Below are positions 24,702 through 37,926 of a DNA stretch of 64,000 nucleotides, piece by piece (position 1 is the first letter of the stretch; every line of letters begins with the position of its first letter). Origin of the DNA: Auricularia sp. M13 (Eukaryota > Basidiomycota > Agaricomycetes > Auriculariales > Auriculariaceae); assembly GCA_037042915.1 (NCBI GenBank), contig CM073203.1:930001-994000 (forward strand). The letters run 5' to 3'. A program made the position numbers and the translations under genes. The notes below the pieces were generated by a model. That model was not told the origin of the DNA. It worked only from the letters and a program-made list of their open reading frames with translations, and ran no database searches.

Positions 24702-25171
24702 GCACAATGTTTGCGGTGCCCAGGCGTCAGGATTCGGCGGTACGGATCGGCGGTGCGTGGAGAGCGGAGAGGAAATTGAGACCGAGCAGCTTATGTAAGG
24801 CACGTGCACCGTCAAGTTCATTCCGAATCATGAAATTCTTATTCCTCCGTATCCGCAGCACAATTTATTCTGCAACTTTCTGAGACACTATTTGGGATAT
24901 GGATCTTGATTTCCTAGGCCATAACAGCATTTCTCGTCTGTTCCTCATGTGGGAATACGATGCAGGAGGTAAACCAAGACTTACGGCTGTGATTTAACAC
25001 CTAGCATCTCAAGTACCATTTACACCCGTAATTATCAGGCATCAATTTGAATTTATTTCGCGCTGTAGGAGTTATCATAGGCCCTGGACAGTCGCCTCAT
25101 ACGGAGGAAGCCGGCCGGAAGTAAATGACCTGGCGGGGATTTCACGTCCCCACGGTTCTGGTCGAGATGCA
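24702..25171. other. Intergenic, AT-rich
   Basis: Holds the upstream region of the 899-aa gene and the flank of the 7.1 kb element. No gene or clear promoter motif. Confidence 0.4.
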
Positions 25172-25180
25172 CGTTCCTCG
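25172..25180 (+). repeat. Left 9-bp target-site duplication of the 7.1 kb element
   Basis: cgttcctcg, identical to 32254-32262 in direct orientation, exactly at the border of the inverted ends. An adjoining A on the left would make it 10 bp if the last A of the element is counted. Confidence 0.85.
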
Positions 25181-25262
25181 TAGACTCAACAAAGCCCGCT
25201 CGGCCGCGGCCGAGCGCCCTCGCAGAGGGGCTTATGACAAAGTCCGCCAAATCGGGGACCCA
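25181..25262 (-). repeat. Left terminal inverted repeat
   Basis: Contains the perfect 20-nt palindrome cgctcggccgcggccgagcg near the tip and, inward, ggcggactttgtcat followed by a cctgggtcc-type sequence (read on the minus strand). The outer 47 nt (25181-25227) occur exactly at 37871-37917. Confidence 0.85.
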
Positions 25263-25634
25263 GGATTATAGAATAATTCACTCCCCGTCACATTTGAGTG
25301 CTCAATGAAAATACAAAAGTTGAAGCCAAGAAGCTATATAACCAGCATATATACTTATATTCTTGATAACCCTGGCGATTATAGAGATCGAGAGGGTAAG
25401 AGTAGTGCGTTGGATATTCAAAGGGCAGTACTCCTGCTTTTACCTGCGTCCCCAAAACGACTTTCTAGGCCCCAATAATTCATGTTTAATCAACATAAAA
25501 CATATTTGATGACGTTTCCGGGTGTAGGACTGCTCGTTCACTTGTACCGTAGCTGCATGTCCGGAAGGCGAGGTGCCCGGAAGCATTCCCTTCCGTGATC
25601 TTATCGATAACAGTCGCCGTCACCGCGGTCGGCA
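25263..25634. other. Subterminal region and promoter of the DUF6589 gene
   Basis: AT-rich, with no gene. Contains an atatatacttatat stretch near 25348, which could serve as promoter for the gene starting at 25635. Confidence 0.4.
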
Positions 25635-28500
25635 ATGCCACCGCGCCGTACACCTGCAGACGATGACACAGATTATAATGCATCCAAGCAGATCAAGTGG
25701 GAGACGCTCTTCCCAAAGACTCAGCACCCTTCTGCCTTCTTCAAGGCTTGCGCCATTCTCTCGCTCATGTCTTACTTGGACTACACTCCGCGCAGATTCC
25801 TCGATTGGTTCTTTGCGACGGAGCACGCCCCCGTGAAGAAGCGCGCTGGGCAATGTCTAAGTCCCACGGGCGGCATATCTCCGCTGACGGTCTGGCTACA
25901 AAACATCGGAGACCGTTTCGACGGCGGCGCCGCTGCGATCGAAAATGCCATCGATCCCTTTGTAAAGGCCGTTCTACTCCGCGAAAGCACTGCAGCTATC
26001 CAGTGCAAAGACCTCAGCATCCTTCCCGAAGACATGACCCTGTCAAACCTCCTGGCTAGGGTCGGGAACGGCACTGAGAGCATCTCATCTCGTATCTGTA
26101 TGCTTATGCCGCGCTCGGTCTCTTGGCTTCTATATGCGACGTCGGCAGACAACTCATACAGGCGCAAACTACGCCGTCGCACATCCGCTACTTCTGAGGG
26201 CGACAATGGGTTGCCTGCCACTACCGAGGACCATGCTGCGCCCGACGGTGACGGTCCCCAGCTTGCTGATGAGGAGGGCCCCGAGTTTATCGAAGAGGGC
26301 TTGAGCTGGCATGCTGAGTATCCGGGTTTCAGTCGCAACCCATTCATGGTACACTGATCCCTGTTTTGATTGTGTATTGGCTCAAAGCTCACATTCGAGT
26401 AGGCCGTAATCTTTGCTCTTTCGGTCCTGCTCTTTGTCCGAAACCGTGCCACCAATGCGCTACCATTTCTTCTCGGAGTGGTCATGGTTACCCACGGTGC
26501 TAGCGCACGCATAATGTCAACGTTCAGCTGCCTCGGTGCCGTCGTCTCAGCACGCAGTCTAGACCGGTTTCGCGTTCGCATCTCGAAGGATGCAGTTGCG
26601 CGCGCCATACATGCAATAAAGGCGTGTCCGCTCTGGTTCTGGATCATCGACAACATTAATCTATACATTCGACGAGCAGCTCAGCGAATCAACAAGATGA
26701 ACTACATGATCCATGCGACAAACTCGGCGGTAATCTTTCTCCCAAGTCACATTCCCCTCGCTGCGCTCAGTGTTGACGACTTCCTCAAGCTACATGGCAA
26801 GCGTACCTCTGCTGTGCAGAACGACATCCGTCCGACTTCAGAGGACGATTCTCATATGCTCTCGGCGTTTGAGGCCGTTGTAGAACAGTTTCTCGTTGCT
26901 TACTGTCCCGGTTCCGACCGGTGGAGCGATCGGACGACTCTCAAGACACGAGCTGCAGCAACCATGCCATCTGTCGACCCTCTGCCACCCGAAGTCACCG
27001 TCACCTATCCTACTGGTGTGCTTGACGCTAACGAAGGGTCGTACAAAGGAATCATCGACGCAATCGAGCGTCTCAGGAAGCGCTTGCATTTGTCCGACGA
27101 CGACTGGGCTAAGCACCTTCGCGTAGGGGCTGGAGACTATCTCACATCACGAAACATCCGTGGAGCTCAGTATCTGCGCCAGTACGAGCAGAGCTCGTCT
27201 GAACGACTCGACACTATTCTTCCGCAATCACAGCTCTTCCATTTCGCCATGCGTGCTGCCGACGTCATTCATTCTGAGCACCTGGGTGACTCAGTCAATG
27301 ATCCAGGCTCTCTCTCGCGACAGAAGGACCTGCTACACCGCACCTACGACGTCAACAAGGTGGACTACGCGAATGCGAAGGCGCTGATACGACATTCTCT
27401 CATTGCTCGTATTCTGCACTGCGTTATGGTTCTCAAAGGATTCAAATCCTGGTCTGCTCTCAGCAAATGGCGCCCAGACTACGAGGATCTCCATTCAACT
27501 GCTAAGACTGTTGTTCGCCAGTACGCAACGGTCCGTGCGGCCGAAAAGGCCCAAGACGCTGGCGACGATGTTCTCGCACACACAATCTACTTCATCATCG
27601 ACTCATTGCGCTTTTGCGAGTTTGAATCTGCGGTTTCTCATGGTGACGCTGGCCGAATCCTTGTTGTGCTCAAGTACTGGGCATTCGACTTTCGAGGCGC
27701 TCGCAGCCACAACTATGCGCGAGAATGCGTGGAGATTCTTTTACGATGGCGACATGAGCTTAATGATGACATGCGGAAGATGTGGGCAGCATCGTGGTTC
27801 GTGAATCGCTGGGGAAAAGCAGGTCGCTTTATTGCGAGCGATTTGTACCTCGAACAACTCAACTACTATGTGAAGGTGAGCAGCCAACAGTTCTTTGACA
27901 GGTTAATAAATGCTGTCTGAATAGGTTGTTCATCTGGCCGACGGAAGCGGCGCCAACATCCAGAACATCATCGCCAAGGGGTCGTCGTGCGTTGAGGCGC
28001 TCAGCGCACTCTCAGAGGCAGTCTCTCAATTCGTTGGCGTTGAGCAAGCCCACCGTAAGCACAAGGAAGCACAATTCAATCGCGATCTCGAGGTGCTTGT
28101 GCTCAACATGCAGAACGCTGCTCTACACACGCTCACCCGAGAATCCCATCGATCATTGCCTCTGCAAGAGAAACCCCGATCGTCGAAGCCCCCTAAGGGC
28201 CTACAGGTCCCTCAGCGGCCCAAGTCTACAATCAACAGCCTATTCAACAAAGGGATGGAAAGTTGGAACGGGAAGTTCGAGGAATTCCTCGACGAGACTA
28301 CCTGGGATCCCGCGCTGGGTCCGGCGTCTGACCAGATGCGCAACCAGGCTGAACCATCTCAACTGGGCGCAGAAGACCTAGCAATCGAAGCTCACGGGTA
28401 CGCTGGCAGTTCCGATCCCGTTTGCGATGGGTTTGGGGGAGTTGGAGGTCTGAATGAGTTCGATGGCGGGCCAACGGCTAACGAACAGAACGACTCATAG
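25635..28500 (+). CDS. DUF6589-type protein, candidate transposase
   Basis: Join(25635..26348, 26403..27875, 27925..28500), 920 aa; three phase-0 exons and introns of 54 and 49 nt. The central part matches what I know of the DUF6589 family of agaricomycetes: WFWIIDNINLYIRRAAQRIN (Asp321), GAGDYLTSRNI (Asp483), HGDAGRILVVLKYW (Asp653) and SHNYARECVEIL (Glu679), with STINSLFNKGMESWNGKF in the third exon. Function is unknown in the literature as I know it. It lies inside an element with target-site duplications, so I infer it is the transposase, with Asp321, Asp483 and Glu679 as candidate acidic triad. The tail is hydrophilic and disordered. No frameshift is present. It faces the helicase gene, tail to tail. 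Confidence 0.8.
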
Positions 28501-28635
28501 TTTAGGCCAATATGCATTGCATGATGTACTCTGAATTAGATTGTGTACTTACTTTTGTTTGCATTCATACGCCCTTCAGGTTAATCATGGCTCGTTGCAT
28601 CAAGTAGACAGTGCTGTACTGAGAGATGAAGCTAT

Positions 28636-31600
28636 TCATTGTGCATTATCGCGAGTGTTATCATACATTGGATAGTTTGGTGGATGAGTGTTTGACTGGA
28701 AATGATTGTGGGGAGTACTGTAGAGGTACGGCGGCGGGGGTGGCTGACGACCGCTGTTATCCACGTGCAGCAAGTATTGCTGACTAGACGGTGGTGTGGG
28801 GAGGTAGGAATTATATGGAGTGGAGTAGGGATTATACGATCTGGTCATGGTCAACGGACGCTGGGATAGGTGCTGCTGTACGAATGGAGAGTCCTGCGGT
28901 GAGATCGGCAGTGGCTGCGCGTAGTCCATCACATTGCCAGTGCCATTCTGGTGGCCGAGAAAGTTGAGCCCAGGATTGGGCGGTGGAAAGGTGCCCCTGA
29001 CATACGCATGCCAATGCGGCGGCGGGGCTTGAGGGAATGGCGAACGTGCGGCTCCGGACCCCACGTGCATCATCGGCGACGCGTGGTGATTAATCCCAGC
29101 AATGGATGCAGGACGGGACTCCAGCATCTGCGGAGTAATACTGAACGCGTAGCTGGACACGCCGGGTGCTGGGAGTTGGGGTGGTGCTGATGCAAAGGGG
29201 TCGTCCGACGCGACATGCAGACGACGCGCGTGATCAAGCACCGGACTATCTGCAAATCGCAGCTGGCGCGGTCCAAGGCTTGGTGAGTCCGGTATCTCAG
29301 AGCCGCGAGGAGTGTCCATGAGCATAGCAGGAGCGGGCGTCCCGCCTGCCCTGCCTTGCGAGTCGTACCGAGCGCGCGAAGGTGTTGACGGTTGCGCCGG
29401 ACCTGTGTCATGCACGGAAACGTCCCCTCCTGTTGCATTGCGCGAGGGTGTAAGAGGATCAGGTCCAGAGGCTGCGGCAGCACGCATCTGAAGCGGCGCA
29501 TTGTTGCGAGGATGTGGCGTGTTGCTGCGAACTAGATAACACGGGGAACAATTAGTGAATGTAAAATACGTTGATGAGACCATTTAATTACCGGGTTGGA
29601 CTGCAGCGGCATCCAGACGGGTGCGCTTCGTGGCTCGTCGAGCAGAGGCAGGCGTGGCGCGCGGACTGTGCAGGTGCGGTACAGTTGTGACCCACGCTGT
29701 GAGAACGGCGACTGCACCGTCAATCTCTGCGGGCCTCGCGAGATCCCATGTTATTTTTCGACGAATATCGGCCACGGTAATGGTGGCAAGATTGGCGAAA
29801 TGCTCTGAGTTCTTGCAGAGCTGGTTGACAACGGCGTCAGGCATGACGGACTGAGCACTGGTCAACAAGCCACATTCCGTCTCTGCATACCGTGACCTCC
29901 AGGCCAGTAGTCGGTCATACAGGTCGTCCACATGTTCCTGCAAGACGGAGCGTTGCATGTTGCGCGCGACACGACGAGACGGTGTGGACGGAGCAGACGG
30001 TTGGGATTGGCCAACAATAGAAACCGAATCGGCGGACCTGTCAGAGTCCGATTGCGCGCTCGCATTGGACGCAGCGTCGTCGGCGACGTCTACAGGTTCC
30101 GAAGGCTGTGATGAACGTAGCGGTCGCAGAAAGTCGTTCTTGAACTTTCCAAAGCGTGTGTCGTCCTCAGGTACAGAGTGAATGAGATTTAGCAGCTCGG
30201 GATTGCAGACCCAGCATTTCCCGCACTTCTCTCCGGGCGGTGGCACGGGGCGGACATTGAGTACAAGCCAGATGGCGTCAAAGCGCAACTTCTGCGCTCT
30301 CCGGCCAGTGACAGGGGTATCGGACATGTCGAGAGTTGTGTAGACCGTCAACCCGGTATCGGGGCGGAATTCCTGCTCGACGAAACGGTGTGCGCAAAGC
30401 CGCTCAGCATGTCCAGACCAGCCCAGATTGATAAATGCCACCAAGGACTTGGACAGCTTCTCGCGCAGCTTTGTCCATTTTGCAGGCTCGAGTTTCTTCT
30501 TCTTTGGTGGACGCCCGCGAAGGCGAGCGACGGCCGGAACAGCGGCAGGAATAGGTGGCGGTGGCGGAGGCACAAAGGCGTAGTCAGGAGCAAATAATAT
30601 GCAGACTCCCTGCGTGGCGGGGTCTCTGCCGGTGCGACCCCACCGCTGAGAGAGGTTTGGCATGGTGAGAACAGCACCGTCAGCCTTCTGGTGTCGGCCC
30701 TTGACGTCGAAGACGGCACAGTATTCAATATCTCCGATGTTACACCCCATGCCAGCAGCATCCGTTGCACATAGAATGCGGGTGTTCCCAGACGCGAATG
30801 CATCCCATGTAGTTGCCTTCATGTTCGTGGACGCTACCGACGAGTACGGCAGTGCAGCAGAAGCACGCATGTTGGACGGGAGGCAGCGGTCAATTGTCCG
30901 ACATCCCCCAATGCAGTCACCGATCTGGTAGAAATAGAACAGAGACTTTGGAATAGCTGATCTCGGGGTCTCGGAATGCAGAGTGTCAGGGATGAGAGAA
31001 AGAGCTGCCATGACATCCGAAGAGACCTTCGGCCTGTGGGCCACGATATAAGCCAATGTCCGCCGAGAAACACCGAGGTCCATGCCAAAAAACGGCCGGC
31101 AGCCATACCGGAATGTGCTCCAGAGGATAGAAAAGCTCGCTGTGTTGAGAGTAGCCGACAGCGAGACGAAGGGGATATCCTGACCGGTGAACGAGCGCAG
31201 CCGATCGAGAAAACCGTACGCTTCGCGGAATGACTTAGCCCATTCAGCTACGACATGGGCTTCATCGACGAAGACAGCCGCAAGAAACTTGCGAAATCGC
31301 GGATTACTGAGGAGGTCTGTGATGCGCTGCGTGAGCGACAGCTCAGGAGAAATGTATACCAATTGCCGCTGTCCTCGCGCAACAGCGGCAAATTCTGCGT
31401 CGGCTTCTGCTGTAGTCAAGTCCTCGTTGATTGTGCATGCTGAGAGTCCCTTGGCCTTTGCCTGCGCAACCTATACAGAAATGAGAGCTGTAATTGACTG
31501 TCGGGAGAGCATATACACACCTGATCATACTCAAGTGCCTTCAGCGGACAGATTACGACGACGACGCCCCGAGGATTCAGGCAAGCGGTGCCCTCAATTA

Positions 31601-31862
31601 TAAGACTTTTTCCGTAGCCAGTTCCAGCGATATAAATGCCATCGAAGCGCTGGTCAATGCGCTGTATCATTGTGGCCTGTTCATCGCTAACGGAGAAGGA
31701 CAGCGACAAGTCGCGCTGCAGCCTGTGCTGTATTTCGGCCAGGGTGAAGCGCGGCGACTGGTAGACACCGTCAACAGGCCTTCGCCTTGTGCGGCGAGCG
31801 GGTTGTGGCGGAGTACGAGCTGCACCAGGTGCGGCGGGCGAGTCGGGTGCATTGGGCGTCAT
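28636..31862 (-). CDS. RecQ-like DEAH-box DNA helicase with disordered C-terminal tail
   Basis: Exons 31521..31862, 29592..31470 and 28636..29531, 1,038 aa; introns of 50 and 60 nt, phases consistent. Motif I is GTGYGKS (80-86), then VVVVICPLKALEYDQ, VYISPEL, VDEAHVV (DEAH 183-186) and SLSATL (217-222). In the C-terminal RecA lobe come ILCATDAAGMGCNIG and QRWGRTGRD (389-397, motif VI). RKLR/CxxC-like residues follow (CGKCWVC), then a Ser/Asp-rich segment. The last exon is a roughly 300-residue Pro/Ser/Gln/Asn/Tyr-rich tail (SQQYLLHVDNSG..., YPMYDNTRDNAQ). The motif order is that of RecQ/Sgs1 3'-5' helicases. The usual winged-helix and HRDC domains are not evident. Location inside the 7.1 kb element implies a role in its mobility or in replication of its intermediates (inference). 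Confidence 0.88.
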
Positions 31863-32179
31863 CCGCAGCGCGCGCGACCAGCACCCGCACCGCAGAAAGC
31901 CCGAATGCGCAGAAAAGACGAAGGCTAGCGCCTGGCAGAGGTCCTAGGCGCGTAAAGCGAGCGCGAAAATGGCGATTAAAGAGCTCTGAAATTAGCAATA
32001 CGTCGAGTGCAGGGAGAGTGTGGCGCGGAATCAGAGCCAACTTCCGTCGCGTCAGGACCCCGTTCAGTTGCACCGACCCACTTAAAAATTATGCAGATCT
32101 ATTGGAAAAGGTCTTGGGTATATTTTATTTCTATTATACGACCGGATACAAGTTTTCGCTGGAGCGCTAGAGCTATGAA
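31863..32179. other. Promoter / subterminal region of the helicase gene
   Basis: No gene. AT-rich stretch tatattttatttctattatacg near 32118-32140, then the right terminal repeat. Confidence 0.4.
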
Positions 32180-32253
32180 CCTGGGTCCCCCGTTTGGCGG
32201 ACTTTGTCACAAACCCCTCCGGCCACCAGCCGGAGGGTTTGGTTCCGAATCTA
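32180..32253 (+). repeat. Right terminal inverted repeat
   Basis: Starts cctgggtccc, shares tttggcggactttgtca with the left end, and carries the hairpin ccctccggc-cacca-gccggaggg. It ends ggttccgaatcta. The terminal 25 nt (32229-32253) occur exactly, inverted, at 37844-37868. Confidence 0.85.
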
Positions 32254-32262
32254 CGTTCCTCG
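32254..32262 (+). repeat. Right 9-bp target-site duplication
   Basis: cgttcctcg, an exact direct copy of 25172-25180. Confidence 0.85.
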
Positions 32263-32457
32263 CTTGGCGGAAGCTGTCCAACAACGTCCGGCTCCGGCCC
32301 GAACATGCTCTTCCGCGGACTCCGACATCAGTCCTTTGCTTCCTACTCTCGCAAGCTTCGTAGATGAGACCGGCCGACAGAGGGCTAGCAAGGGCGTAAA
32401 GATACCATACTATATGTGTATGAATTTGGAAATAATTACCTCGCGTACCAGGGCGTA

Positions 32458-33206
32458 TACCATCCGACACCGGGAAGTGAGATACTTTCTGATATCTCGC
32501 TACTGAGACTTACCCTTCCCTCCGGACTTTTTGCATCGCATTCCCAGGCATAAAATACAGGGGGGTAGACGTTTTTCCGGAGGGGAAATGTGCAGAGGAC
32601 GGCGAGCAAAGCAATACACCAGGAAGTGAAACATTTCGGAAGCATCTGATGCATCAGCAATCGACGCTCGGCCGCTCGGAAGTCATTTCGTCCCCACTAG
32701 GAGTCTTCAAGAAAACGACAAAGGCGTCAATATTGTATCCTCAACAGCTACCATGAAATACCTGAAGTCTTCAATGCACTTCCGGGCGCGAACTTCGAGG
32801 CTATAAAAGGTACCGAGCTCTGTTCCGAGCTTCCGAACATCGAGCTGGCTACCCCGTTGAGCATCCAACTGCGTTTGAGCCACATACACGCAAATCCAGC
32901 CTCTTGTAGGTTGTAAATACACATTATAAACCATATTGAAGAGGTGGGAGGGGTCAGGGCGTAGGGGGAGGCGTGGGTTGCAAATGGCAGACGGCGTACA
33001 CCACCATCCACACGACGGCAACGGCTCTGGTCACCGCTGCAAAGCCGTTTTCCCATCGGACACTTCAATGTTAGGTAGCCTACCCATTTCTGCATGCGTC
33101 TATAACAGCTCAAGTGTCCACGACGTGTGTGTGGCGCGCTGAAGACGGAAAAGTGCGGAATATTTCACTTCCCAGGGGGTCTTTCACTTCCCGGTGTCGG
33201 ATGGTA
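32458..33206. mobile_element. MITE-like element, 749 bp
   Basis: Perfect 23-nt inverted termini (32458-32480 and 33184-33206) that begin taccatccgacaccgggaa. TA at both ends could be a Tc1/mariner-type TA target duplication. Subterminal gaagtgaaa words recur near 32622 and, inverted, near 33164. An internal hairpin (ttccctccgga / tccggaggggaa) lies at 32516-32587. No coding capacity. Confidence 0.78.
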
Positions 33207-37834: not shown

Positions 37835-37843
37835 TGTCAAAAT

Positions 37844-37917
37844 TAGATTCGGAACCAAACCCTCCGGCGACTCTGCGAGGGCGCTCGGCCGCGGCCGAGC
37901 GGGCTTTGTTGAGTCTA
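37844..37917. mobile_element. 74-bp miniature derivative of the 7.1 kb element
   Basis: Begins tagattcggaacc (25 nt identical to the inverted right end, 32229-32253) and finishes ...ttgttgagtcta (47 nt identical to the inverted left end, 25181-25227), with only two extra bases between. Perfect 9-bp direct repeats tgtcaaaat flank it at 37835-37843 and 37918-37926. This is either an extreme internal deletion or an end-to-end fusion that was itself inserted. Confidence 0.85.
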
Positions 37918-37926
37918 TGTCAAAAT

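Follow-up and report, generated by a model that had tools for sequence, protein, structure and literature searches.

A stretch of 64,000 nucleotides from the basidiomycete Auricularia sp. M13 (the window; C11:930001-994000 in a 52.1-Mb assembly of 14 contigs) contains a 7,073-bp element that is very probably an autonomous DNA transposon of the AcademH type that moves by cut and paste. A protein with the domain DUF6589 would be its DDE transposase, and a RecQ-like helicase would have an accessory role. An initial annotation, made from the letters of the window, had described a mobile element here, and this observation was confirmed as a whole: the ends of the element recur in the genome, they are flanked by target site duplications (TSDs), and empty sites are found. 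The annotation was mistaken in knowing of no described superfamily with this gene pair, since AcademH, an Academ lineage already described, bears a helicase and makes TSDs of 9 or 10 bp. Its interpretation therefore stands with regard to mobility, the likely transposase and the element's own helicase, but not with regard to an undescribed superfamily.

Searching the genome with each end gave at least 14 copies with both ends, all counts being lower bounds. They comprise the window element, a full copy of 7,046 bp (C3:2045704-2052749) with long open frames where both genes sit, and twelve copies of 958-1,329 bp. TSDs of 9-10 bp, differing in sequence, flank 13 of the 14 copies. Twelve are 9 bp long; 11 of these are perfect, and that of a copy on C5 (257 kb), GAACAGAGG on both sides, was read by eye beyond a small right-end deletion. 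The C3 full copy has a 10-bp duplication, GTGCCGGAGG. Because the ends recur with different duplications in so many copies, the boundaries are not due to chance, and the expectation that the ends would be tied to 9-bp duplications elsewhere was borne out. The small copies form two groups, being 88.0-99.7% and 92.5-99.4% alike inside the group and about 55-57% alike across the groups, and two representatives share only about 80-110 bp per end with the full copies. The likeness of up to 99.7% between 1-kb copies is counted as a sign of activity, and the element has probably been mobile recently.

Empty sites were sought for 13 of the 14 copies by joining the two 70-bp flanks of each and matching them with the genome (a wrong boundary had been used for the copy on C5), and unoccupied counterparts spanning the junction were found for two of the 13. 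For one small copy the empty site lies at C2:549634-549775 (99% identity), where the DNA has the target once. The C3 full copy has empty sites at seven places (97-98%), six of which form inverted pairs, three in all, spaced by about 0.67 kb; at the one place that was read the target is present once, with a substitution in its tenth base. The remaining 11 joined flanks had no match across the junction in the genome, as is to be expected where the flanks are unique and the assembly is a single haploid one. The C3 full copy is inserted in another repeat, which is present at seven other places (on C8, C9, C1 and C3), and an element on C9 abuts a copy of the repeat that hosts the C3 full copy (L026). 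Three one-sided left-end pieces at 8.66-8.73 Mb on C1 (L034, L035 and L036) are truncated small copies and were left uncounted; the repeated segment that holds them reaches 99.6% identity from one place to another. A one-sided piece at C2:3979653 matches the type found on C10 and was likewise not counted.

The pairing of the two genes is general in this genome, which supports the claim that the element brings its own helicase. A profile search for DUF6589 gave 36 exon matches, grouped as 21 loci. The helicase protein gave 16 matches, and TIGR00614 gave 35, of which 33 were used after two second pieces of listed genes had been omitted; scores were obtained for 31 of the 81 first-look candidates. 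For 17 of the 21 DUF6589 loci a RecQ-like gene was located within 8 kb, with gaps of 1.3-4.2 kb and on the opposite strand in all 17 cases (13 convergent, 4 divergent). Random placement in 2000 trials gave a mean of 0.28 paired loci and a maximum of 3, with distances taken from midpoints and an approximate length for C4. Fifteen of the 16 matches to the window helicase, itself included, stand beside a DUF6589 locus. Two of the divergent pairs (L039 and L044) appear close in sequence.

Flanks were read for 11 pairs, several of them only partly, and seven of the pairs lie between inverted ends with a perfect 9-10-bp duplication (Table 1). Their boundary scores are 46 (C2), 46 (C6), 33.8 (C9), 29 (C13), 23 (C3), 22.7 (window) and 22 (C10), compared with best scores of 21.1 on average (s.d. 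1.7) for 110 mismatched left-right pairings. A rule demanding TAG at both ends and at least 9 bp was passed by the window, C3, C10 and C13 elements and by none of the 110 mismatched pairings. One mismatched pairing, the left flank of C2 with the right flank of C8, scored 33.8 and is read as a sign that these ends may be related. The C9 case is slightly weaker because its left duplication overlaps the end of a neighbouring repeat. On C6 the pair with the top score (47) was rejected, its palindromic 'duplication' lying inside a long inverted repeat, and the outer pair, second in rank, was taken.

The DUF6589 protein is most likely the transposase of the element, judging from its sequence. A 480-aa open reading frame (ORF) in its main exon matches Pfam PF20231 (DUF6589), a family to which Pfam assigns no function, with an E-value of 1.9e-97 and 327 bits against a curated cut-off of 27. 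Eight of the 21 DUF6589 loci, those with longer rows, were aligned; earlier sets of 21 and 17 rows, the first of which contained fragments, had been narrowed to these. The C3 copy is 77% identical to the window protein and the other aligned loci 19-25%. The candidate catalytic residues D321 (IDN) and E722 (D-x3-E-x2-N) are each conserved in all seven rows that reach the column, and D483 (GD) is conserved in all eight, as is a histidine 35 residues past it; an alternative candidate glutamate (NYARE) is conserved in only five of the eight. DDE transposases may carry a long insert ahead of the glutamate, and the conserved pattern fits such an enzyme. Between the two full copies the proportion of nonsynonymous differences (pN) in the DUF6589 gene is 0.15 versus 0.765 for synonymous ones (pS), the latter being saturated. 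The earlier proposal that this protein is the transposase is thereby favoured as the most likely one, with D/D/E conserved and both genes of the full copies looking constrained. This assignment is probably the new part: within the library searched no paper naming DUF6589 and no relevant one for PF20231 was found, so linking DUF6589 to AcademH-type elements may not have been published before. A single DUF6589 protein searched against viral contigs found no relatives there.

The helicase belongs to superfamily 2 (SF2) and has the motifs GTGYGKS, DEAH, SATL and QRWGRTGR as well as a C-terminal four-cysteine cluster, and its match to the Helicase_C profile is above the cut-off of that profile. Against TIGR00614 (recQ_fam) it gives an E-value of 4.5e-15 and 55.4 bits, which is under the curated cut-off of 219.8, and the closest solved structures are those of RecQ and BLM; RecQ-like is therefore the proper term. 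Between the two full copies its ratio of nonsynonymous to synonymous substitution rates (dN/dS) is 0.107, with dS about 2. The coding DNA of these copies is about 72% identical, and their ends are 94.6% (over 92 bp) and 89.4% (over 104 bp) identical. Low dN relative to dS together with conserved ends suggests that selection maintains the two proteins as well as the two ends; an idle helicase would not be maintained.

By the proposed mechanism, the DUF6589 transposase would bind the ends of the element, cut at the TAGA/TCTA termini and join the ends to a target with a stagger of 9 bp, sometimes 10 bp, which repair would convert into the target duplication. The helicase would be an accessory enzyme that probably unwinds the ends, several of which are capable of forming hairpins, or helps gap filling at the donor or the target. 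The twelve 1-kb non-autonomous copies and a single 74-bp copy would have been moved in trans by the full copies.

Ten ends were each tested for hairpins against 200 shuffles, the figure being the number of shuffles that did equally well, uncorrected for the ten tests. On the helicase side it was 3 for the window element, 0 for a small copy, 0 for C10, 0 for C13 and 5 for C2, and on the transposase side 5 for C2 and 13, 23, 123 and 107 for the other four. The two ends of the C2 element are identical, and it has the only transposase-side end with a marked hairpin. Palindromes just inside the ends (those of L069, L070 and L071 among them) are thus marked on the helicase side in four families, and in three of these four they are weak or absent on the transposase side. 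Hairpins as a trait of both ends were therefore rejected; six of the ten ends stand out, with at most 5 of 200 shuffles, and four do not. The opening of such helicase-side ends could be the task of the helicase, gap filling being the other role it could have.

The element is called AcademH-type because the helicase and the 9- or 10-bp duplications match those of described AcademH elements, and we hold this placement with considerable confidence, one step short of tested membership. In the passages cited here, AcademH is characterised by a helicase and TSDs of 9 or 10 bp (Kojima, 2020, Mob DNA 11:15, as cited in PMC10045372). Its hosts are animals and fungi. In the fungi, copies are few in each of Basidiomycota, Ascomycota and Mucoromycota (PMC10799480). 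AcademX, of the same superfamily, differs in having TSDs of 3 or 4 bp and a nuclease in place of the helicase, and Kojima ties the TSD lengths of the two to their differing accessory enzymes (PMC10045372). Kapitonov and colleagues are cited in PMC3627910 as having reported that Academ contains a RecQ helicase, and according to one survey 81% of the fungal Academ copies contain protein domains, for instance DEAD and recQ_fam (PMC6416283). Among the features compared (helicase, fungal hosts, TSD length and low copy number) AcademH and the window element do not differ. KDZ and Plavaka elements are numerous in this genome, with 149 and 87 exon matches respectively, which fits the fungal host, but none of the eight DUF6589 proteins scanned has a Pfam match to either. 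TSDs of 8 bp are given for Zisupton and of 2-3 bp for Plavaka (PMC12730594). The Plavaka search also hit a 21,545-aa open frame at C5:4280003, perhaps a run of N and not a gene.

Several observations weigh against the assignment of the element to AcademH with DUF6589 as its transposase. AcademH membership rests on the helicase and the TSD length; of an Academ-type DDD/E transposase, a D/D/E pattern is what was observed in the DUF6589 protein. None of the eight DUF6589 proteins scanned against Pfam matched a known transposase family, a profile of the DUF6589 alignment searched against solved structures found no transposase (a single irrelevant match, E 0.79), and a single-sequence fold of the 480-aa ORF had a mean predicted local distance difference test score (pLDDT) of 35.1, too low to show an RNase H fold. 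The copy at C2:2621338-2622666 has two ends and no duplication. Four of the 21 DUF6589 loci lack a helicase match within 8 kb, a figure that is not firm with 31 of 81 candidates scored, and four of the 17 pairs are divergent (C1:4941938, C2:727547, C1:3298610 and C4:3541861). The initial annotation had regarded pairs lying outside such ends in most genomes as contrary to its reading; in this genome, the one searched, the seven pairs within ends agree with it, whereas the other four of the 11 (on C5, C7, C8 and a divergent pair on C2) had no ends in the stretches read. By score alone the window, C3 and C10 boundaries are not outstanding, and the true boundary of the window element ranked second (22.7 vs 24.2). 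The window and C3 boundaries were accepted because of their many copies, and that of C10 because its ends match window-family copies, with identities such as 94.9% across 39 bp and 81.9% across 72 bp.

The same negative profile results would also suit a different explanation, in which a separate, undescribed superfamily has arrived by convergence at 9-bp duplications and a RecQ helicase, with a DUF6589 transposase unrelated to Academ. No profile link was found between DUF6589 and any named transposase, and no paper in the library searched names DUF6589, or PF20231 in such a sense. We nevertheless consider this unlikely, as AcademH, as described in the cited passages, already combines a helicase, fungal hosts and 9- or 10-bp TSDs (PMC10799480; PMC10045372), and convergence in all three is less simple than membership. 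An equally improbable version has a DUF6589 lineage distinct from Academ as a separate helicase-bearing superfamily, in which the helicase-side hairpins would be the working substrate of its own RecQ-like enzyme.

DUF6589 might also be an accessory protein only, the mobilising enzyme being encoded elsewhere in the genome and the window copy being a passenger. The catalytic role proposed for DUF6589 comes from its sequence, and 4 of 17 pairs differ in layout, which would suit a passenger; however, no genes other than DUF6589 and the helicase are clearly conserved between the two full copies, both of these look constrained, and the D/D/E residues are kept by the aligned proteins, which makes the passenger very improbable. 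Mutator-like elements have 9-bp TSDs, and one that captured a helicase would agree in duplication length. This is slightly less probable still: the domain of the Mutator-like (MuDR) transposases, PF10551, is unmatched by the eight DUF6589 proteins scanned, the genome's six matches to it lie elsewhere, and helicases are paired with quite divergent DUF6589 loci, which argues against a recent capture. A KolobokH element would likewise be fungal and carry a RecQ helicase, but the 4-bp TTAA duplication of Kolobok elements excludes this lineage for practical purposes, the window family having varied 9-10-bp duplications and TAGA..TCTA instead of RR..YY ends, with the helicase as a separate gene on the opposite strand and not downstream of the transposase domain.

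The features of the window element are collected in Table 1, where the exon limits are predicted splice sites read from the DNA by eye. The element starts with TAGACTC and finishes with GAATCTA, the outermost 7 bp being inverted with 6 of 7 matching. A 47-nt inverted repeat, the longest inverted pair within 24800-32700, starts 44 bp in from the left end and 34 bp in from the right. Of the related inverted ends proposed earlier (25181-25262 and 32180-32253), these two parts were recovered, but not the ends over their whole length; the perfect 9-bp direct repeat on both sides was found as described. The two genes between the ends are indeed unbroken and convergent, but they are not alone: a proline-rich 315-aa ORF (28636-29583, minus strand) lies immediately behind the helicase stop. 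Its similarity to a 329-aa ORF at a like place in the C3 copy is doubtful (E 0.017), and it may represent a third gene that changes fast, or else a late exon.

Table 1. Features of the window element, its 74-bp relative and the paired loci with duplications (positions are those of the window)
Feature	Position	Strand	Description
Whole element	25181-32253		7,073 bp; TAGA..TCTA ends, recurring in the genome
TSD, left	25172-25180		CGTTCCTCG, 9 bp
TSD, right	32254-32262		CGTTCCTCG, 9 bp, perfect repeat of left copy
Left (transposase-side) end	25181-25275	+	95 bp; 98.9% and 92.6% identity to 1-kb representatives L021 and L027
Right (helicase-side) end	32166-32253	-	88 bp; 94-95% identity to four of five group-A 1-kb copies
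Subterminal inverted repeat, left arm	25225-25271	+	47 nt, 87% complementary to 32173-32219
Subterminal inverted repeat, right arm	32173-32219	-	47 nt
Palindrome, left end	25197-25216		small
Palindrome, right end	32215-32237		hairpin-forming
DUF6589 gene	25635-28500	+	exons 25635-26348, 26403-27875, 27925-28500; 920 aa; likely DDE transposase
RecQ-like SF2 helicase gene	29584-31862	-	exons 31862-31521, 31470-29584; 742 aa
74-bp minimal copy	37844-37917	-	47 bp of left end, 2 bp, 25 bp of right end
TSD of 74-bp copy	37835-37843 and 37918-37926		TGTCAAAAT, 9 bp
Window and C3 pairs			TAGA ends; perfect duplications
C10 pair			TAGG ends; duplication GGGTTTCCC
C13 pair			TAGC ends; duplication GCGCTTGGC
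C2 pair			CATACTCC ends; duplication GGATCGAAC
C9 pair			CATACTCC ends; duplication GGCTCTTAG
C6 pair			CAAGCTCC ends; duplication CCTCCGAGC

The 74-bp copy lies 5.6 kb from the element, inside the window, and is made of the outermost end sequences; it was the sole full-length match among the 18 scored and retains only three bases of the 47-nt inverted repeat. Judging from its make-up, either about 25 and 47 bp of the ends suffice for movement, or it is a larger insertion that later lost its middle. This small copy may thus bound the DNA that is required for movement.

With the DUF6589 protein as the likely transposase of AcademH-type elements, a Pfam family of unknown function gains a likely job. 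'Hypothetical' and RecQ-like genes in such genomes would become recognisable as parts of transposons and need not be taken for host repair genes. With its two genes unbroken, the window element would also be well suited to testing why a helicase is carried by some cut-and-paste elements.

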